Shown: piece by piece, positions 2,096-45,041 of the stretch | Layout: every line of letters begins with the position of its first letter | Position numbering within the stretch: position 1 is the stretch's first letter | NCBI RefSeq assembly: GCF_003850345.1 | Contig: NZ_CP027707.1 | Location: forward strand, 2,294,001 to 2,358,000 | Reading direction: 5' to 3' | Length of the DNA: 64,000 nucleotides | Source of the DNA: Pseudomonas chlororaphis subsp. piscium | Lineage (GTDB): Bacteria; Pseudomonadota; Gammaproteobacteria; Pseudomonadales; Pseudomonadaceae | The notes under the pieces: generated by a model | Seen by the model: only the letters and a program-made list of their open reading frames with translations | What the model was told of the DNA's origin: nothing | Databases searched by the model: none | Program-made: the position numbers and the translations under genes

Positions 2096-2787
2096 TCTAT
2101 CCAGGCGTATTGAACGCAGTTGTTTCGGCCCTCGCTGCCGAAGCTATCGACAACACCAGCAAACAGGCATGGCAGAAGCTGTACAACTCTGCAGACGAGG
2201 AGGAGGGCGGCGACCTGGCGACACTGGTTCGCTCCCGCGGCGCCGACACCATCGATCGCACCCAGGTGGATTGCTGGGTGTCGGCCCGGCTGCATAGCCG
2301 TCTTGACCCGAAGCACTGGAACGCACTGGTGGCGAAGTACAGCACCCACAAGGGGCGTAAGGTGCAGGCCATCTCTGCATTGCAGGCCCTCATTAGCACC
2401 CCGGCCCCCAAGCTGTTCCTGTTCAAGGCGACCACCGCCTGGGCCATCCCGCAGCTCAAAGGTGCGCGGGCGAAGGTGGCCAAGTCCGTATCCGTCGAGA
2501 TTCCACTCGATGCTCCAGAGTGGCGTCGTGAGTCGATGGTGAAGGCGGCGGTGGCAGCCGGCCAGGCCAAGGCCAAGAAGGACGAATCCCGGTCTGCTGA
2601 CATGATCGTGCTGAAGGACAGCTTCTACGACATGAACACCTGGGATAACGACGGTACACCGGAGTCGACTCGGCGCCGGTGGCGGCAGGACATTGGTCGG
2701 GCTGCTGATGATCTGGTGAACGATGCCCTGGCACATGCCGCGGACATTCTGGAGGCTGAAGGTTTGCTGATTGAGCGGGCTGCGTGA
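2092..2787 (+). CDS. phage protein in late-antiterminator position, function unknown
   Basis: 231 residues, last gene of the overlapping early block. It lies directly after NinG and is followed by a terminator, where lambdoid phages place the late antiterminator Q. I see no zinc finger or clear HTH. The sequence is a soluble alpha-helical protein with a basic middle and an acidic C-terminal helix. The Q-like role is inferred from position only. Confidence 0.55.
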   Translation: MIYPGVLNAVVSALAAEAIDNTSKQAWQKLYNSADEEEGGDLATLVRSRGADTIDRTQVDCWVSARLHSRLDPKHWNALVAKYSTHKGRKVQAISALQALISTPAPKLFLFKATTAWAIPQLKGARAKVAKSVSVEIPLDAPEWRRESMVKAAVAAGQAKAKKDESRSADMIVLKDSFYDMNTWDNDGTPESTRRRWRQDIGRAADDLVNDALAHAADILEAEGLLIERAA

Positions 2788-2869
2788 TTGCCTATTGACA
2801 GCAATGAGCGGATGAGCGAAATTAATCCCATCCTGTCATTCCTGCGCGTATCGAGGAGTGCCAAACAAG

Positions 2870-2897
2870 AACCCGGCCACCGCGCCGGGTTTTTTAT
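2870..2897 (+). terminator. intrinsic terminator after the early block
   Basis: An 8-bp perfect stem (AACCCGGC / GCCGGGTT, 2870-2877 and 2884-2891) with a 6-base loop, running into a T6 tract. It closes the early operon and, if the preceding gene is a Q-type protein, could also be a target of antitermination. Confidence 0.8.
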
Positions 2898-2961
2898 TGC
2901 CCTAATGCAGGCGAAAGACCGGAAAGACCCTCCTGCCCAATCGACGTTCGAGGATCTACCG

Positions 2962-3198
2962 ATGCACATCACCCGCTGCAAAATGACTCTCCGCTCCAAA
3001 GGGCCTGTTCAGGGCTCGACCGAATCGCTAACCCGCCTGCACTTCGGTGCTGTGTGGTCTGCAAACCCGGCGGAAGAGGACGCGATCTATGGCAAGTACA
3101 CCCCGTACGGCGAATACGTCGTGAACGTGGCTGCCGATCGCGCCGAGCACTTCGAAGAAGGGAATGACTACTACTTCGATATCTCGCCAGCTTTCTGA
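2962..3198 (+). CDS. small acidic phage protein of unknown function
   Basis: 78 residues, read from ATG 2962; the longer frame back to 2788 crosses the terminator and was rejected. The protein is acidic with several aromatic residues in the C-terminal half (TPYGEYVVNVAAD, DYYFDISPAF). It resembles small conserved cytoplasmic proteins often seen in Pseudomonas prophages near the lysis region. No function can be assigned. Confidence 0.55.
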   Translation: MHITRCKMTLRSKGPVQGSTESLTRLHFGAVWSANPAEEDAIYGKYTPYGEYVVNVAADRAEHFEEGNDYYFDISPAF

Positions 3199-3667: not shown

Positions 3668-4321
3668 ATGCAGAGTCCTGACTTCGTTGAGGGTGTATCT
3701 GGCTGGCGGTTGAGCAAGGATCGCCTCGAGCTGTACGGCATGGCTTCCCCGGTAATCCTGGGCAATCTCGACGCGCCAGAGAGCCGTTCAGCCACTGATC
3801 AACCCAAGCCCTTCATCGTGATCGATGGCGTGACCTACATCAGCCAAGCAGAGATTGAGCGCGCATCGATCACCAACGCGAAGATCGTAGCGGGGCTTGC
3901 GGAGCCAATCCGGCGTGGCTGCTTTTGCTCCGGTGGCTACACCGGCGACGGCCCCGAGAATGGTTCGGGGATTATCGCTTCGGGTGCCGACAGGCTGTCC
4001 GATACCTGGGTGGTGAAGATGGCGTCCACCCCGTCCGGGGAAAGGTACGTCGCCGGCTTTGGCGGTTTCGACTCCCAGTTTCTGGTAGACGCTGACCGCT
4101 GGAAAATCAATGACTCTGCCGGGGATGCCCCGCAGCCTGGTGATGCGCTGAAGGCTGGTGGTGTTGGCTCAATGCTTGACGCCATGGCCAGCACGATCAG
4201 CGAAACATCGCTCGGCAAGGAACTGTTGAGCGAGATCAGCAAGGTTCCAACAATCGCCGACCAGATCCGTGACGTTCTCCGCGCCGAGCTCAAGCCAGGC
4301 GGCATGCTGCACCTCCGCTGA
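3668..4321 (+). CDS. stand-alone tail-tip (gpJ C-terminus-like) module
   Basis: 217 residues. Three short blocks match the C-terminus of the tail tip protein J encoded at 22293-25226: GVSGWRLSKDRLEL (J: AGSTGWRLWFDGTFEI), ASITNAKI (J: GTITNAKI), and WVVKMAS...SQFLVDADRWKI (J: WSVKMET...SQFVVRADTFML). The blocks occur in the reverse order compared with J. It is not with the tail genes but directly upstream of the holins. It may be an accessory fibre or adsorption-modifying protein; this is inference. RBS AAGGATCACAGCA is acceptable. Confidence 0.65.
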   Translation: MQSPDFVEGVSGWRLSKDRLELYGMASPVILGNLDAPESRSATDQPKPFIVIDGVTYISQAEIERASITNAKIVAGLAEPIRRGCFCSGGYTGDGPENGSGIIASGADRLSDTWVVKMASTPSGERYVAGFGGFDSQFLVDADRWKINDSAGDAPQPGDALKAGGVGSMLDAMASTISETSLGKELLSEISKVPTIADQIRDVLRAELKPGGMLHLR

Positions 4322-4353
4322 TCACCCCAACAACTGAAAATGGAGCAAGACCA

Positions 4354-4728
4354 ATGGCCGAACCGAGCGCCGGCGTGATGGCGGGTACGGCCGTTGTGGG
4401 CATGACCACTGCGAGCCTGATCCCGGGTGTAGATGTGAATGCAGTGGTCGGCGCTTTCGCCGGCGCCATGTTCTTCGTGGTGTTCGCCAAAGAGCTTACC
4501 GCCTGGGCCAGGCTTGGTTACTTCATCGCTTCCTGGGTGGCTGGCTACTACGTCGCCATTGAAGTGATGGGCCGGGAGATCGCGAAAGCCTCAGGCCTGG
4601 CTGCCTTCTTCGGTGCCATGTTCTGTGTCGCGATCGGTATCAGCCTGCTGGAGTGGGTCGGTGGTGGAAAGATCCCTGGCTGGCTGCAATGGCTCCTCGA
4701 TCTTCGTGGAGGTCGCCCTAATGGTTGA
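4354..4728 (+). CDS. phage holin-like membrane protein
   Basis: 124 residues with about three hydrophobic segments (residues about 10-25, 30-45 and 60-100), small size and a short charged C-terminus (DLRGGRPNG), all typical of phage holins, which form the inner-membrane lesion that lets the endolysin out. It is followed, overlapping by 8 bases, by a second small membrane protein. The endolysin is far away, beside the spanins at 27460, an arrangement seen in several Pseudomonas prophages. Confidence 0.7.
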   Translation: MAEPSAGVMAGTAVVGMTTASLIPGVDVNAVVGAFAGAMFFVVFAKELTAWARLGYFIASWVAGYYVAIEVMGREIAKASGLAAFFGAMFCVAIGISLLEWVGGGKIPGWLQWLLDLRGGRPNG

Positions 4729-39054: not shown

Positions 39055-39561
39055 ATGCAACGCAAGACCCTCCTTCACGAAGAATGTCCGATTGCCCGCA
39101 GTCTGGAACGGGTGGGCGAGTGGTGGAGCATCCTGATCATGCGCGACGCCCTGCATGGCCTGCGGCGTTTCGAGGAGTTTTCCCGCAGCCTGGAGATCGC
39201 CCCCAACATGCTCACCCGCCGCTTGAATTCGCTGGTCGAGGCCGGCTTGCTGGAGCGCCAGGCCTACAGTCAGCGGCCGCTGCGCTACCAATATGTGCCG
39301 ACGGCCCGGGGCGAGGATTTTCGTGTGGTGCTGATGGCGTTCGTCGCCTGGGGCAATCGCCATTACGCGCCGGAAGGGGAAAGCGTGCAGATTGTCGAGC
39401 GCGCCAGCGGCCGGCCGGTGCGGCCAATGATGGCGGACCTGGTCGATGGTCGTCCGGTGCCGCTGGAAGAGTGCACGGTCCAGGTCGGGCCGATGGCCAG
39501 CGAAGGCATGCGTCAGCGGCTGGGGGGCATGCAGGCGATGGCGGCCAAGCGCGAGGCCTGA
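39055..39561 (+). CDS. HxlR family transcriptional regulator
   Basis: 168 residues from ATG 39055 with GAGGAAC upstream. CPIARSLERVGEWWSILIMRDAL and FEEFSRSLEIAPNMLTRRLNSLVEAGLLER are the complete HxlR winged helix, with Cys11 in the conserved redox position. The C-terminal 60 residues extend beyond a minimal HxlR. It is divergent from the FabF-like gene with 115 bases between, which contain ATGAAAGTAACAT, so it likely regulates the synthase. Confidence 0.85.
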   Translation: MQRKTLLHEECPIARSLERVGEWWSILIMRDALHGLRRFEEFSRSLEIAPNMLTRRLNSLVEAGLLERQAYSQRPLRYQYVPTARGEDFRVVLMAFVAWGNRHYAPEGESVQIVERASGRPVRPMMADLVDGRPVPLEECTVQVGPMASEGMRQRLGGMQAMAAKREA

Positions 39562-39594
39562 GGTACCGCGGATCGCCGCGGCGACAGGCGCCTG

Positions 39595-40008
39595 TCACTG
39601 GCCCTTTTCGCAGTTGACCATCCACGAGGCGCCGAAGCGGTCGACCAGCATGCCGAAGCGCGCCGCCCAGAAGGTGGCCTCCAACGGCATCTGGACAGTG
39701 CCCTGGTCCGCCAGCGCGGCGAACACCCGCTCGGCCTCGGCGATGCTGTCGACATTCAGCGATATCGAGCAGCCATGGATACCCGAGTAAGGACGATCGG
39801 GCGTGCTGTCCGAGCCCATGATGGCCTGGTCGCCCACCAGCAGGCGGGTGTGGATGATCAGGTTGTGATACTCGGCGGGAATATGCTCGCAGGCGGGGCT
39901 TTCGCCGAAGGTCATCATCATTTCGAGGGTGCCTTGCAGGCACTGGGCGTAGAACTTGAAGGCGGCTGCGCAATCGCCGTTGAAGATCAGGTAGGGATTG
40001 ATTTTCAT
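39595..40008 (-). CDS. VOC superfamily protein (PhnB/YjdN-like)
   Basis: 137 residues from ATG 40008. MKINPYLIFNGDCAAAFKFY begins the betaalphabetabetabeta VOC module and TFWAARFGMLVDRFGASWMVN ends it, the PhnB/YjdN (3-demethylubiquinone-9 3-methyltransferase-like) subgroup. It has no catalytic annotation with certainty; family members lack a full metal triad. Convergent with the HxlR gene. Confidence 0.8.
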   Translation of the reverse strand: MKINPYLIFNGDCAAAFKFYAQCLQGTLEMMMTFGESPACEHIPAEYHNLIIHTRLLVGDQAIMGSDSTPDRPYSGIHGCSISLNVDSIAEAERVFAALADQGTVQMPLEATFWAARFGMLVDRFGASWMVNCEKGQ

Positions 40009-40216
40009 GGTGGGGCTCCCGGATAGGCAGGGGCAGCGGGCGCGTCTGCCCGCTGGCAAAAGCTGATGGGTGGGACCTCCACTAGCAAAGCCCAAACCTG
40101 TGTGGCAGTGGGCTCGTTTTTAGACGGTTTTCTCATGGGGCAGTGGCGGGTTATCGCCCTTGGTGCACCCCTCCTGTCAGGCCCGCCGCCTGGTCGGCGG
40201 CGAGCCTTGGGTGGAG

Positions 40217-41680
40217 CTACACCAGCCGGGTCTGGGGCATGCCCAGCAGGCCGGTCAGGCGGTCCATGATCGCCTGCTGCCGGGCGCGGTCGGCCAGGTA
40301 GTCGGCCTCGGCGCTGGCCACATCGGCCGAGCAGTGCGGGCAGGTGGTTTCGTGGGCATGGATGTACTGCCAGCAGCCGCGGCACAGGGCCAGTCGGGTG
40401 GGCAGGCGTCCCTCCTCGGGGGATTTCTGCCCCTGGTTGATCCACGCCAGCTTGATCACCTGGCCGCTGTCGCTGACGCTGCTGACCGTCTCGCCGGTGT
40501 CGATGCGTTCGGTGATCAGGTCGAAGCGACCGACCGCGAACGACGCCTTGGCGGCGTCCTCAAGCTTGACGATGCGTTCGCGCAGGCCCTTTTTCTGCAG
40601 GTCCAGGGCGCGGTAGTGGCAGTACGGATTGTTGCCCGGCTTGCCCAGCAGCGAGTGCGAGGTCCAGGTGCAGCCGCCGCGGCACACGTCGTTGTAGTAG
40701 CAACTGCGGCAATAACCCCAGAGGTCGTCGACCGAGCGCAGGCGGCCAAAATGCATGCCTTCGCTGTAGTGCCAGATGTCGTGCAGGCTCATGTCGCGCA
40801 CATTGCCGCCGGAGAACCCCACCGTCGCCAGCGAAGGACAGCCCTTCACCGTGCCGTCGGCTTCCAGGGCCAGCACCGTTTGCCCGGCGGCGCAGCCGCT
40901 CCAGTGCACGCGCTCGTCGCCGAAGCCGCGCCACATATGTTCGTAAGGGCCGTAGTAACCGATGTTGTTGCCGATGTTCATCAGCAGGCCGCGTTCCAGG
41001 CCTTCGCGGTAGAGGCGCGCGAGCAGCGGCATGACTTCCAGCAGTTGATAGGGTTGCAGCAAGAGTTCCGGGTGATCCACTGCGTTGCCCATGGCCACCG
41101 TCAGCTGGATCTGCCAATGGGTGGCGCCCAGTTCGATGATCAGGTTCATCAACTGCGGCAAGTCGGGCAGGGTGGCCGCGCCGATCTGCGTGTTGACGCT
41201 GACCGCGAGTCCGGCCTGCTTGGCCCGGCGCAGGGTGTCCACGGCCTTGTCGAAGGAGCCCGGGACGTTGCGCACGGCGTCATGCAAGGGTGCCAGGCCG
41301 TCCAGCGAAACCCCCACGCCGTTGAGCCCGGCATCCACCGCGGCCTGCATTTTCGCCGGGGTGAGGTTGCGCCCGCCGGTCTGGATCGCGCAGTAGATGC
41401 CGTGGTCGTGGATGGCCTGGATCAGGCGAGTCCAGTCCTTGCGCAAATAGGCTTCGCCGCCGATCAGGGTGACTTCCCGCGTGCCGAGGGCGGCGAGGGC
41501 GTCTATCACGTCGAGGCATTCCTGGGTGTTCAATTCATTGGGGCGTCGGTGGCCGGCGCGCGAGCCGCAATGCAGGCATTTGAGGTCGCAGGCAAGGGTG
41601 ATTTCCCAGACCACATGCACTGGTACGTAACGCTTGAGGTCGGTTTCGCTGAGGTAGCGGGCGGGGCGATTGGCTGACAT
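40217..41680 (-). CDS. radical SAM/SPASM maturase of the GDL-motif peptide system
   Basis: 487 residues from ATG 41680. CDLKCLHC (Cys 31, 35, 38) binds the SAM cluster; the GGE-like motif is IGGEAYLRKD. The SPASM part holds CAAGQTVLAL, a Cys in VKGCPSL, and CRSCYYNDVCRGGC, enough for two auxiliary 4Fe-4S clusters. The C-terminus adds a zinc-ribbon CRGCWQYIHAHETTCPHC. It is the last gene of an operon whose three upstream genes share a (G)DL motif; I recall the family being annotated as GDL motif peptide-associated maturase. The reaction on the substrates is unknown. Confidence 0.8.
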   Translation of the reverse strand: MSANRPARYLSETDLKRYVPVHVVWEITLACDLKCLHCGSRAGHRRPNELNTQECLDVIDALAALGTREVTLIGGEAYLRKDWTRLIQAIHDHGIYCAIQTGGRNLTPAKMQAAVDAGLNGVGVSLDGLAPLHDAVRNVPGSFDKAVDTLRRAKQAGLAVSVNTQIGAATLPDLPQLMNLIIELGATHWQIQLTVAMGNAVDHPELLLQPYQLLEVMPLLARLYREGLERGLLMNIGNNIGYYGPYEHMWRGFGDERVHWSGCAAGQTVLALEADGTVKGCPSLATVGFSGGNVRDMSLHDIWHYSEGMHFGRLRSVDDLWGYCRSCYYNDVCRGGCTWTSHSLLGKPGNNPYCHYRALDLQKKGLRERIVKLEDAAKASFAVGRFDLITERIDTGETVSSVSDSGQVIKLAWINQGQKSPEEGRLPTRLALCRGCWQYIHAHETTCPHCSADVASAEADYLADRARQQAIMDRLTGLLGMPQTRLV

Positions 41681-41786
41681 GGACAGTCCTTTGGGCGCAC
41701 ACAGGCGCGCGGCACGAACCTGGCGGATGTCCGCGCCGTCCCTGGCGATGCCGGCCCGAGCGGACATAGGGTTTGCCAGTGGTAAA

Positions 41787-41822
41787 CCGGGCCTGGCCCT
41801 GGGGAAGGAAGGCCAGGCCCGG
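41787..41822 (-). terminator. strong hairpin between substrate and maturase genes
   Basis: A 12-bp perfect stem (CCGGGCCTGGCC at 41787-41798 and GGCCAGGCCCGG at 41811-41822), followed on the minus strand by only TTTACC. It is 10 bases beyond the last substrate gene and about 106 bases before the maturase start. It may be a partial terminator or an mRNA-stabilising hairpin that lowers the amount of maturase relative to substrate. Confidence 0.6.
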
Positions 41823-41832
41823 ACGCCACCTT

Positions 41833-42414
41833 TCAGCGAGCTTCGAGGCGGGCGATCTCGGCGTTCAACTGCTGCAAGGCGCTGCGCAGCGCATCGCTGC
41901 TGGCCAGCTGCTGTTCGCCCTGGCGGACCACCGCCTTGAGTTGCGCCAGGTCACCGCTGGCCTGGGCATGCTGCACCGCCACGGCATACAGCGGGATGGG
42001 GTGATGCGGCACGGGTTCGGGGTGCGGGATCGACGCCTGGCTGACGGTGCCGTGCTGCACGTCCTGCCAGCTGCCCTGGTAGTAGTACCGGTAGCTGGCG
42101 GAACCGCTGGCCCAGTCGAGCCCGAGAATCCCCCGCAGGTGGAAGGTCTCGGCGATCTGGCTGGTCGGACCGCTGGGGTTGCCGTCGAGCTTTAGAATGA
42201 TGTGGCCTTCGGTCGAGGGGTCCAGGTGGAGCTGGGAATACTCACCCCACACGTCGGCGAAGAAGTTCACCGGCGGATAAGTGCTCTTGAACACGCGGGC
42301 CACGCCGCTGACTTTTTTCTGCGGTGTGTTGACCAGAAGGTCGAGGGTCAGAACCGGGGCCCCCAGCAGCGCCGTGGTGACGTGGAGGCGGGTGTGGAAC
42401 AGTCCAGTTTGCAT
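41833..42414 (-). CDS. DUF1842-DUF1843 protein, candidate substrate with GDL motif
   Basis: 193 residues, RBS AAGGAG. Residues about 1-125 are the beta-rich DUF1842 domain (LLVNTPQKKVSGVARVF, DVWGEYSQL); residues about 135-193 the helical DUF1843 domain (PIPLYAVAVQHAQASGDLAQLK, and LNAEIARLEAR at the end). The SGDLAQLK block is the motif shared by all three small genes of the operon. The domain arrangement is the same as in the next gene; they are paralogues. No signal peptide or Cys is present. Likely modified by the radical SAM enzyme; inferred from context. Confidence 0.75.
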   Translation of the reverse strand: MQTGLFHTRLHVTTALLGAPVLTLDLLVNTPQKKVSGVARVFKSTYPPVNFFADVWGEYSQLHLDPSTEGHIILKLDGNPSGPTSQIAETFHLRGILGLDWASGSASYRYYYQGSWQDVQHGTVSQASIPHPEPVPHHPIPLYAVAVQHAQASGDLAQLKAVVRQGEQQLASSDALRSALQQLNAEIARLEAR

Positions 42415-42466
42415 GGTGCAACTCCTTGTTCGTATTCAGGGAAGTCGGGTCAGGGGCGAGCGGCGG

Positions 42467-43102
42467 TCAGCGGCGCTCGAGCTTGCCGATTTCGTCCTTG
42501 GCTGCATCCAGCGCGTTGCGCAGTTGTGGCAACTGCTCCAGTTGCTGCGTGGCCTGGCTGGCCAGGGTTTTCATCTGGGCCAGGTCGCCGCTGGCGATGG
42601 CGCCATGGATTGGCGCGGCATACAGCGGATGGATTGGTGGATACGCCTGCAGGGCCGGAGCGGTTTCCTGGTGCGTTTGCAGGGTGTAGGAGGGCACCGG
42701 CCCGACCAGATGGGCCGGAACGTTTTCGACCGATACCCATTGATGGCCGTTGTAGTACTGGTAGTTGGCGACGCCGCTTTGCCAGTCTTCGTCCACCACC
42801 AACTGGATCTTGAAGGTGACGATCGAGTTGGAGCTCGGTCCGCCCTGATTGCCCTGGGCGGTCACCAGGATCTTGCTCGTGCTGGGCGGCATGACGGTCA
42901 GGTAGGTGTATTGCCCCCACACATCGGACGGCAATTCCAGGGGAGGATTGACGGCCTGGGTGATGAGCGAGGTGCCGCGCACAGTCTGGTCGGGGGTGTA
43001 GACCAACAGGTTGAGAGCAAGGCTCGGCGCGCCCGGGATCGGATTGCCGATCCGGTAGCTGAGGGGAAACAGGCCAACAGGGGACGTAGTGGAACCGGAC
43101 AT
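42467..43102 (-). CDS. DUF1842-DUF1843 protein, candidate substrate with GDL motif
   Basis: 211 residues, RBS GGAGG. DUF1842 at about residues 8-135 (LLVYTPDQTVRGTSLITQAV, DVWGQYTYL), then a Pro-rich linker, then DUF1843 at about 155-211 (HPLYAAPIHGAIASGDLAQMK, ending DEIGKLERR). A clear paralogue of the gene at 41833 but with a different linker. It is separated by 52 bases from that gene and 34 bases from the small gene upstream, so they are one transcript. Confidence 0.75.
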   Translation of the reverse strand: MSGSTTSPVGLFPLSYRIGNPIPGAPSLALNLLVYTPDQTVRGTSLITQAVNPPLELPSDVWGQYTYLTVMPPSTSKILVTAQGNQGGPSSNSIVTFKIQLVVDEDWQSGVANYQYYNGHQWVSVENVPAHLVGPVPSYTLQTHQETAPALQAYPPIHPLYAAPIHGAIASGDLAQMKTLASQATQQLEQLPQLRNALDAAKDEIGKLERR

Positions 43103-43136
43103 GATTGCCTCCAGTGCATTAGAAAATGGAACAGCC

Positions 43137-43325
43137 TTAGTGCCGTTCCAGACGGGCGACTTCCTGTGCCAACTGCTCGTAAGCGCTGCTCAGATCCTTG
43201 GATTCTTTCTGGGATTTATCGCGCTGTTTGAGCAGGGACTTCATCTGCGGCAGGTTGCCGAGGGAGATTGCTTTCTGAATCGCCACTCCATAGGGCGGAA
43301 TGACATGTTGCGAGGATGAACTCAT
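43137..43325 (-). CDS. stand-alone DUF1843 peptide with GNL variant motif
   Basis: 62 residues, first gene of the operon, RBS GGAAGG. It has only the DUF1843 domain: IPPYGVAIQKAISLGNLPQMK, ending LAQEVARLERH. The motif has Asn in place of Asp (GNL), unlike its two long paralogues. Its size is that of a RiPP precursor. It could be a substrate, or a carrier for the other two. Confidence 0.7.
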   Translation of the reverse strand: MSSSSQHVIPPYGVAIQKAISLGNLPQMKSLLKQRDKSQKESKDLSSAYEQLAQEVARLERH

Positions 43326-43600
43326 GGCGTTGCCTTCCGTGGGAGGTTGTAGAGACTGCGCTATCCGGCAGCTTTTGCAGTTAAGCAGGCCGGGCACGGG
43401 GCAAACGCAAGGGCCACCGAATAACTTCGAATAGCCGTTATCGGGAAAAAATATATTCAGGCGGGACAAGCAACTGGCGCGGCGACATAGCGCGTTTGGC
43501 AATCAGCAGGACGCGGCTTACGAAGAATAGATACAAGCGGCGGGGGGTACTTCGACTCCCGGGAGTGGGCGGAAAAGGGCAGGATCGCCCCGGCCCGGCA

Positions 43601-44197
43601 TCAGGCCACGGCACTCTGCGGCGCGCTGTGCAACAGCCGCTCCAGGGCGCCGCTGAGCAGGTGTTCCAGCAGGGTTTCGCGCTCGTGTTCGGCCAAGGGC
43701 TGTTCGGCCAGCCAGCCGGGCGCACTGTTGAGCAGGCTGGCGATGGCATGCCCGGTGGCCAGCAGCGCCGCGTCGCCGAGCCGCGGCAGCGGGCCGAGGA
43801 GCATCAGCAAACGGTGTTCATATTGCTCGCGCAACTGGCGCACGCGTTGCTGCTGGTCCTGGTTCAGGCAACCGCTGTCGCGCTCCACCAGGCGAAAATG
43901 CCGGGGCAGTTCCCGGTACAGCTTCAGGTGGGCGCGGATCAGGGTGCGCAGGCGATCGTCCGGCGCCTTGAGCCGCCGTTCGATGCGCCCCAGGGTGTCG
44001 AGCAGCTCGTCGTAGAACTCTTCGATCAAGTCCAGCAGCAGGTGCTGCTTGCTCGGGTAATGGTGATATAGCGAGCCCGGGGTCAGCCCCAGATGGCTCG
44101 CCAGCTCGCGCATGCCGACCTGGCCGAAGCCCTTGCTGGCGAACAGCTCCAGGGCCTTGTCGCGGCTTTCGGCGAAACGCGAGCAACGCTCAGCCAT
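43601..44197 (-). CDS. TetR family transcriptional regulator
   Basis: 198 residues from ATG 44197. The helix-turn-helix ALELFASKGFGQVGMRELASHLGLTPGSLYHHYPSKQHLL is complete. The C-terminal ligand domain is helical with several Leu-rich turns. The start overlaps the end of the 3-hydroxyacyl-CoA dehydrogenase gene by 8 bases, so it is transcribed with it, and a fatty acyl-CoA type ligand is plausible. Confidence 0.85.
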   Translation of the reverse strand: MAERCSRFAESRDKALELFASKGFGQVGMRELASHLGLTPGSLYHHYPSKQHLLLDLIEEFYDELLDTLGRIERRLKAPDDRLRTLIRAHLKLYRELPRHFRLVERDSGCLNQDQQQRVRQLREQYEHRLLMLLGPLPRLGDAALLATGHAIASLLNSAPGWLAEQPLAEHERETLLEHLLSGALERLLHSAPQSAVA

Positions 44198-45041
44198 AGC
44201 GGTGGAAACCACGTTCGGTCTTGCGCCCCAGGTAACCGGCGGCGACCATTTCCTTGAGCAGCGGCGCGGGCCGGTATTTGCTGTCGTTGAAGCCATCGTA
44301 GAGGGCCGCAAGGATCGCCAGCAGGGTGTCCAGGCCAATCAGGTCGGCCAGGGCCAGCGGGCCGATCGGCTGGTTGCAGCCCAGGCGCATGCCGGCGTCG
44401 ATGTCCTCGGCGCTGGCCAGGCCTTCCTGCAACACCAGGATCGCCTCGTTGATCATCGGAACCAGGATGCGGTTGACCACGAAGCCCGGGCGGTTACCGG
44501 CGGTGATCGCGACCTTGCCCAGGCGGGTGGCCATGTCCAGGGCCAGGGTGTGGGTCGCGTCGCTGGTCTGCAGGCCGCAAATCACTTCGATCAGGCCCAT
44601 CACCGGCACCGGGTTGAAGAAGTGCAGGCCGATAAAGCGCTCGGGCGCGCTGACGCTGGCGGCGAGCTGGGTGATCGACAGCGACGAGGTGTTGGAGGCG
44701 ATGACACAGGTGCTGGCAACCTGGGCGGCGATCTGTTGCAGCACCCGCAGTTTCAGCTCGAGGTTTTCCGTGGCGGCCTCGATCACCAGCTGCGCATCGA
44801 CCAGGCTGGCGTAGTCGGTGCTGGTGCGGATGCGCCCCAGAATCGCCTGTTTCTGCGCTTCGTCCAGGCCACCCTTGGCGATCTGCCGGTCGAGGTTTTT
44901 GCCCACCGTGGCCACGGCCTTTTGCAGGGCGCTGTCGCTGATGTCCAGCAAGGTCACTTCGAACCCGGCCTGGGCACAGACCTGAGCGATACCGTTACCC
45001 ATGGTGCCGGCGCCGATCACGCCGATATTCTGCAGATTCAT
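44190..45041 (-). CDS. 3-hydroxybutyryl-CoA dehydrogenase
   Basis: 283 residues from ATG 45041. The Rossmann motif GAGTMGNGIAQ (residues about 9-19), SNTSSLSI, and catalytic His in GLHFFNPVPVM followed by GNRPGFVVNRIL define the short-chain 3-hydroxyacyl-CoA dehydrogenase (Hbd/PaaH) family. It oxidises (S)-3-hydroxybutyryl-CoA with NAD(P). It is stand-alone, without a crotonase domain. The next gene in the transcript is a TetR regulator; an AraC regulator is divergent upstream. Confidence 0.9.
   Translation of the reverse strand: MNLQNIGVIGAGTMGNGIAQVCAQAGFEVTLLDISDSALQKAVATVGKNLDRQIAKGGLDEAQKQAILGRIRTSTDYASLVDAQLVIEAATENLELKLRVLQQIAAQVASTCVIASNTSSLSITQLAASVSAPERFIGLHFFNPVPVMGLIEVICGLQTSDATHTLALDMATRLGKVAITAGNRPGFVVNRILVPMINEAILVLQEGLASAEDIDAGMRLGCNQPIGPLALADLIGLDTLLAILAALYDGFNDSKYRPAPLLKEMVAAGYLGRKTERGFHRYG

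Follow-up and report, generated by a model that had tools for sequence, protein, structure and literature searches.

What does a radical S-adenosylmethionine (SAM) enzyme do to the three small proteins that are encoded beside it? This question is raised by a four-gene operon in a 64,000-nucleotide stretch of the Pseudomonas chlororaphis subsp. piscium genome (contig NZ_CP027707.1, positions 2,294,001 to 2,358,000; this whole stretch is called the window, and its first letter is position 1). The operon is probably a protein-splicing system, in which a TIGR03913 enzyme would excise the tyramine part of Tyr12, Tyr161, and Tyr143 in its three partner proteins.

The proposed reaction would begin with cleavage of SAM by the TIGR03913 enzyme to give a 5'-deoxyadenosyl radical. 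In each partner, the enzyme is expected to bind the C-terminal helical domain, DUF1843, and attack would fall on an invariant tyrosine located directly before this domain (X-Y-G or X-Y-A). The tyramine part would be lost (C8H9NO, -135.07 Da per site) and the Tyr carbonyl joined to the preceding residue, as for PlpXY, so that Pro11, Leu160, or Leu142 would become a reactive alpha-keto-beta-amino residue. We infer the reaction, the use of all three proteins as substrates, and recognition through the DUF1843 helices; the proposal of a reaction rests on the nearest relatives of the enzyme, which read as PlpX-type spliceases. PlpX (IPR026482) is described as excising tyramine from Xaa-Tyr-Gly and rejoining the chain, acting with PlpY (PMC11002830). 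The natural sites of PlpXY are given as MYG and LYG, the mass lost (C8H9NO) is stated to be 135.0757 Da, short-tagged proteins are said to be processed as well, and spliced glycine sites are described as undergoing tetrazine ligation (PMC10533398).

The operon and its link to DUF1843

All four genes, and every codon and motif of the window given below, lie on the minus strand. First comes a 62-amino acid (aa) DUF1843 peptide (43137..43325; PF08898, 49.4 bits), whose predicted site P11-Y12-G13 is followed by X(10)-GNL; the codon of Tyr12, the predicted excised residue, occupies 43290..43292. Next are two DUF1842-DUF1843 paralogues. The 211-aa protein (42467..43102; PF08896, 127.5 bits; PF08898, 57.9 bits) has a solved homologue, 8t0b, and its predicted site L160-Y161-A162 (Tyr161 codon, 42620..42622) falls at the junction of linker and helix, whereas the 193-aa paralogue (41833..42414; PF08896, 115.3 bits; PF08898, 67.0 bits) carries the predicted site L142-Y143-A144 (Tyr143 codon, 41986..41988). 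The radical SAM/SPASM enzyme is last (40217..41680). It has 487 aa from this start, or 516 aa if translation starts at 41767; position 41680 is the more likely start because AAAGGA precedes the ATG and most of the aligned homologues begin close to the corresponding Met. The intergenic gaps of 34, 52, and ∼150 bases fit the expectation for a single operon.

A preliminary description of the window had named four genes in this order and direction, a DUF1843 peptide with two DUF1842-DUF1843 paralogues, and the blocks ASGDLAQLK, ASGDLAQMK, and SLGNLPQMK in the three small proteins. The gene order is as it stated, all Pfam scores exceed their cut-offs (23.3 bits for DUF1843, 23 bits for DUF1842), and the three blocks are present exactly as written. 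Read by eye, the small proteins contain Y-X(10)-GNL once and Y-X(10)-GDL twice. The genome consists of one 7.07 Mb contig, and its three DUF1843 matches all fall inside this operon; the closest relatives are from Pseudomonas.

Co-occurrence of the enzyme with DUF1843 genes had been set beforehand as the check on this gene grouping. Genome contigs were searched with an alignment of 15 enzymes, and the best 80 of 460 relatives were kept as loci. These derive from Pseudomonas, Chromobacterium, Burkholderiaceae, Alphaproteobacteria, Acidobacteriota, Cyanobacteriota, one myxobacterium, and one Saprospiraceae bacterium. DUF1843 is present at all 80 loci, with 221 domains that are all on the enzyme strand and no more than 1841 bases upstream of the enzyme; most operons hold three paralogues. 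Among 298 Pseudomonas genomes, the enzyme occurs in 22, and DUF1843 exceeds its cut-off in those same 22, with three domains each. The sharing of gene neighborhood and Tyr motif is far beyond chance, since the neighborhood recurs in 80/80 loci and the motif in 221/221 domains.

The same association is seen in a sample of 398 Pseudomonadota and 297 Acidobacteriota genomes. Besides that of the window, full-length DUF1843 was found in G426 (also among the 22 Pseudomonas genomes), G973, G1306, and G145 (the genome of locus L081). Each of these carries the enzyme, that of G973 being under the cut-off (497 bits). Partial DUF1843-like matches in frames of 742-774 aa were set aside as presumably a different protein, because they span only positions 13-50 or 14-50 and do not include the Tyr region. 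One of them is above the Pfam cut-off (27.2 bits, the 753-aa frame of G752), and those of G351, G407, G783, and G761 are below it. No TIGR03913 match was found in G752 at an E-value of 1e-80 or in G351 and G407 at 1e-150, G783 and G761, from the 398-genome sample, not being searched. Apart from such weak partial matches, DUF1843 without the enzyme was not seen in these genome samples.

Is the barrel domain DUF1842 tied to the enzyme in the same way? Its profile detects a barrel in 59 of the 80 loci (two copies in 58), and the other 21 loci have DUF1843 proteins only. In ten genomes searched, four orphan DUF1842 genes were found outside the operon (L175 1369-1935, plus strand; L172 1429-2016, minus; L177 1429-2019, minus; L178 1408-1881, plus), none with a DUF1843 tail. 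Loci that lack the barrel and orphan barrels that lack the tail support an association of the enzyme with DUF1843 rather than with the barrel.

These data also bear on the idea that DUF1842/DUF1843 proteins self-assemble into shell-like structures, or are general stress proteins, with the enzyme being incidental. The repeated paralogues in operons prompted structural workers to consider assembly (PMC10994174). A stress role was inferred for a C. violaceum DUF1842 gene located beside sodB (PMC4216352), and in Chromobacterium the orphan gene at L175 is flanked by genes for iron/manganese superoxide dismutase and redoxin. Nevertheless, we consider this explanation highly improbable. A monomer and no assembly are described in PMC10994174, DUF1843 keeps company with the enzyme in the samples above, and the tail is missing from all four orphan frames.

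The invariant tyrosine

The preliminary description pointed to the GDL block, common to the three small proteins, as the place to look for a modification. This choice could not be retained. In the 53 columns of the DUF1843 profile, the sole invariant column is a Tyr located ten residues before GDL, which is present in 221/221 domains. GDL itself is found in only 150 of the 221, and is replaced in the others by GNL, GDV, GKL, DNL, and more. The GDL block was therefore rejected as the first-choice modification site, and the likely target is the invariant Tyr. The residue preceding this Tyr is Leu (143 domains), Pro (72), or Met (6), and the residue following it is Ala (114), Gly (105), or Met (2). 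In 25 hand-chosen, aligned two-domain proteins, Y161 is the only invariant residue in the linker and DUF1843 domain combined.

Short proteins that consist of DUF1843 alone show much the same pattern. A separate search gave 54 of these (56-80 aa), of which 50 match the strict pattern Y-X(9-11)-G[DNEK][LIMV]. Three of the remaining four retain PYG or LYA and have an altered GDL. The Tyr is at residue 6 or 7 in 34 of the 50 strict-pattern proteins. As a separate observation, one frame at L155 (5790-6173, minus strand) has two tandem DUF1843 domains (LYG and LYG) and adjoins a third (PYG).

A structure was predicted for the 211-aa protein (mean pLDDT 73.1, pTM 0.58), with eight strands across residues 12-132. 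Values of pLDDT fall below 50 at residues 137-162 and 164-168, and the first DUF1843 helix begins at residue 162. With low confidence, the model thus places Tyr161 between a flexible linker and a helix. The solved structures of a related DUF1842-DUF1843 protein (8t0b, 8t1m, and 8t1n) are described as having a visible barrel but no visible DUF1843 part, and cleavage just before this part was suspected (PMC10994174). The protein studied was recombinant from E. coli, and no enzyme is mentioned in the accessible text of that report. Production in this host presumably took place in the enzyme's absence, and the 8t0b homologue, whose own site is M-Y-G, is thus presumably unmodified.

Tyrosine invariance could also arise if DUF1843 were a binding partner or carrier of the enzyme, with the Tyr needed for contact or for structure and the substrate located elsewhere. 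Separate small proteins do aid maturases in other systems, as PlpY is described to do (PMC11002830), and our searches for small neighbors covered only DUF1843 and the presumed PlpY. Yet the presence of three paralogues in the majority of operons, the Tyr as the one invariant column among 53, and its apparent position beside a disordered linker in the predicted structure argue that the DUF1843 proteins are substrates. We therefore regard a carrier role as quite improbable.

Relationship of the enzyme to the TIGR04103 family

The enzyme matches TIGR03913 over residues 33-508 with 1036.6 bits, well above the curated cut-off of 591.75. The window operon thus belongs to the rad_SAM_trio, with the same trio of small proteins, and many records of the enzyme family carry the name 'Y-X(10)_GDL-associated radical SAM protein'. 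Among the best 25 of 72 NCBIfam matches, the second is TIGR04103 (434.5 bits, 3.1e-130), and the third model scores 164 bits. Three cysteine clusters, numbered here for the 516-aa version, are invariant in 15 aligned homologues: the radical SAM CxxxCxxC motif (C60, C64, C67; 41567..41590; PF04055), seven cysteines of the SPASM region (C292, C310, C353, C356, C362, C366, C383; 40619..40894; PF13186), and a C-terminal CxxC-CxxC zinc ribbon (C462, C465, C476, C479; 40331..40384). The SPASM cysteines and added zinc ribbon are as the preliminary description had noted.

We take the PlpX family, IPR026482, to be TIGR04103. This assumption is supported by Nif11 precursors with LYG or MYG sites, by a downstream small gene, and by the NCBI label of the homologues, 'nif11-class peptide radical SAM maturase 3'. 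In the cyanobacterial phylum, 18 of 194 genomes have TIGR04103-like matches at an E-value of 1e-60, of which 11 are above the cut-off and one is the Symploca TIGR03913 enzyme itself. In the 11 cyanobacterial loci of the 14 TIGR04103-clade loci examined (SPL), precursors carry LYGV, MYGV, or LYGG, with a Nif11 domain in 5/5 tested. A small gene follows the enzyme in 11/11 of these loci, and was taken as the presumed PlpY by position and size.

The two families share their substrate motif. Read by eye, X-Y-G is present in a gene adjoining the enzyme at 14/14 SPL loci. A strict motif was also scanned by script in same-strand frames ending no more than 900 bases upstream, and it was found at 12/14 SPL loci, 28/39 TIGR03913 loci (a sample from the 80, many of the rest having YA), and 2/18 outgroup loci.

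They also share sequence within the enzyme. An alignment was made of 25 TIGR03913 rows (the window and 24 hand-picked of the 80 loci), 14 SPL rows, two rows of a third group, and an outgroup of 18 other radical SAM proteins. Leaving out the third group, TIGR03913 and SPL agree on one residue, with conservation of at least 95%, in 105 columns; for 56 of these columns, that residue occurs in no more than 25% of the 18 outgroup rows. The window enzyme is 39-45% identical to SPL enzymes and 23-34% identical to the outgroup. In a maximum-likelihood tree, each family forms one group (support 100/100 and 100/99), and both families with the third group stand apart from the outgroup (100/99). Members of that third group, which are outside both families in the tree, are encoded at L136 (3020-4267, minus strand) and L137 (5764-7020, minus strand); upstream of the former lies a 112-aa frame (4264-4602) that begins with a zinc-ribbon-like segment and contains an ACYGAPP stretch.

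SPASM enzymes catalyze diverse reactions, and the same Tyr or adjacent residues might instead be altered by other radical chemistry (oxidative decarboxylation, cross-linking, epimerization, or formation of C-C or C-S bonds) with no excision of tyramine. This diversity, the long branch of TIGR03913 (1.39), and the family's own zinc ribbon would fit such a departure, as would the near-equal use of Ala and Gly after Tyr (114 vs 105 of 221), unlike the XYG of PlpX. In contrast, the 105 columns in common with the splicease-like family, of which 56 are seldom matched by the outgroup, the occurrence of X-Y-G in both substrate sets, and the lack of any conserved Cys near the Tyr in the DUF1843 profile argue against other chemistry. 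On balance, a different radical reaction seems unlikely.

Excision by the window enzyme would resemble the action of PlpXY in that both use a radical SAM/SPASM enzyme, and the TIGR04103 relatives have its signature residues and adjoin substrates with hydrophobic-Tyr-Gly sites. There are also distinct differences. The zinc ribbon is an addition of the window family (25/25 TIGR03913 rows vs 0/14 SPL rows). The three window proteins have no leader of Nif11 or nitrile-hydratase type, as judged by Pfam domains, and instead have DUF1843, so that the presumed recognition helices come after the site. Ala is as common as Gly after the Tyr, and the first window peptide has Pro at X. Furthermore, characterized PlpX works with PlpY, whereas no gene resembling the presumed PlpY was found in the 80 TIGR03913 loci.

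Several observations weigh against tyramine splicing by the window enzyme. It fails the TIGR04103 cut-off (434.5 vs 725 bits), and support for TIGR03913 and TIGR04103 as sisters, with the third group outside, is weak (93/69) in a midpoint-rooted tree that drew a software warning about long outgroup branches. A profile of the presumed PlpY, built from 11 small frames adjoining TIGR04103 genes (no Pfam match in the two tested, and PlpY identity itself presumed), gave nothing significant in the 80 loci (best E-value, 1.2). Only the 62-aa peptide has an X-Y-G site (PYG), the other two window sites being LYA, and no test of PlpXY with Ala after Tyr was encountered in the accessible parts of the literature cited. 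Finally, two DUF1843 proteins depart from the expected site: P0249, one of the 54 stand-alone proteins, lacks the Tyr, and a peptide at L154 (5401-5628, plus strand), adjoining a divergent enzyme (497 bits), has V-Y-D in place of X-Y-G/A. A PlpY hidden in the C-terminus of the enzyme was considered and rejected, since profile comparison gave a probability of 0.2%.

Among the open-licence PMC papers listed, no reaction was found assigned to TIGR03913 or DUF1843. The Chromobacterium operon is assigned to an 'XYE' system in PMC12114271. Our family scores appear to favor a splicease relation over XYE, no XYE model having been examined on its own. The main point made here may already be contained in Scott et al. 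2022 (Chem), the title of which hints at such protein substrates, or in Richter et al. 2024 (Chem Sci).

Some TIGR04103-clade loci encode repeat proteins. A TIGR04103 relative from the window's own class (L005, 703 bits) lies beside the gene for a 160-aa protein with four PVYG repeats (2711-3193, minus strand), which is a candidate repeat-type splicease substrate. QPKYG repeats are encoded downstream of the enzyme at L134 (636-1241, minus strand), and APMYG is repeated in a protein next to a TIGR04103-clade enzyme at L135 (3400-4224, minus strand); each of these two proteins could have about five or more spliced sites. Because these three repeat-type proteins have no Pfam match, a leader may not be essential to the TIGR04103 clade.

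Predicted products and variation among loci

If splicing by the window enzyme occurs, then the residue before each Tyr determines which ketoamide would be formed. One Pro and two Leu precede the Tyr in 62 of the 80 loci; a further four have one Pro, one Leu, and one Met. The other 14 have L alone (seven loci), LLPP (two), LP (two), M alone (two), or LL (one). Three Chromobacterium loci, which are counted among those with L or M alone and have one profile-detected domain each, show no separate PYG peptide by the profile and have instead a PPYG segment at the N-terminus of a barrel protein. The 66 loci with one Pro and two Leu or Met are mostly close relatives, and hence represent fewer than 66 independent events; the pattern is seen also in Alphaproteobacteria, Acidobacteriota, and Bacteroidota. 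Only tentatively, and with considerable doubt, we suggest that bacteria of several phyla produce a fixed set of spliced proteins that function as intact proteins, comprising one Pro-derived and two Leu- or Met-derived alpha-ketoamides.

Such a set would provide protein-borne electrophiles displayed on a small barrel, for example covalent protease inhibitors with differing P1 preference, and covalent protease inhibition is possibly the role of the window proteins. Natural Tyr backbone splicing would then reach two-domain proteins of 190-210 residues, beyond peptide precursors, and would be relevant to a solved structure in which the tail domain had found no explanation. A splicease that seemingly has no PlpY-like partner, and that perhaps accepts X-Y-A, would be useful for protein labeling. 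An 'uncharacterised maturase' is thereby given a specific prediction, namely that 135.07 Da is lost at each of three named tyrosines. The product may be important to the cells, since DUF1842/DUF1843 genes are strongly induced: They are listed among the most raised B. thailandensis transcripts in stationary phase (PMC12322963), and quorum sensing is reported to raise them in C. subtsugae (PMC12114271, PMC10197875).

The preliminary description had likened the layout to that of a system for ribosomally synthesized and post-translationally modified peptides. This likeness stands in that one maturase is accompanied by three substrate-like proteins with a common motif, and short stand-alone DUF1843 peptides exist (56-80 aa among the 54). 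For the two-domain proteins, the data give no indication of a leader, cleavage, or export. Neighboring genes were compared across 26 loci of the 80 (best 14 clusters of frames of at least 100 aa, from 20 genus labels). Most of these clusters correspond to the enzyme or the barrel proteins, or are out-of-frame shadows of either, and none is a shared protease. The sole transporter-like cluster comprises mixed ABC ATP-binding frames from four labels, some kilobases off.

Regulatory elements of the window operon were also sought. No sigma-70-like promoter was found in 39500-44300. A hairpin at 43127-43150 was rejected as an attenuator between the first two genes, since a T-tailed hairpin follows the first gene in only three of the 43 Pseudomonas relatives, among which L025 alone has a similar one.

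A methyltransferase-like frame is found near the operon under four labels, two cyanobacteria, a Saprospiraceae bacterium, and Caulobacter (L100 11455-12165, plus strand; L095 11487-12179, plus; L103 3381-4076, plus; L087 8362-9213, minus). It is above a Pfam cut-off in L103 only and just under it in L100, L095, and L087, and possibly provides a second modification.

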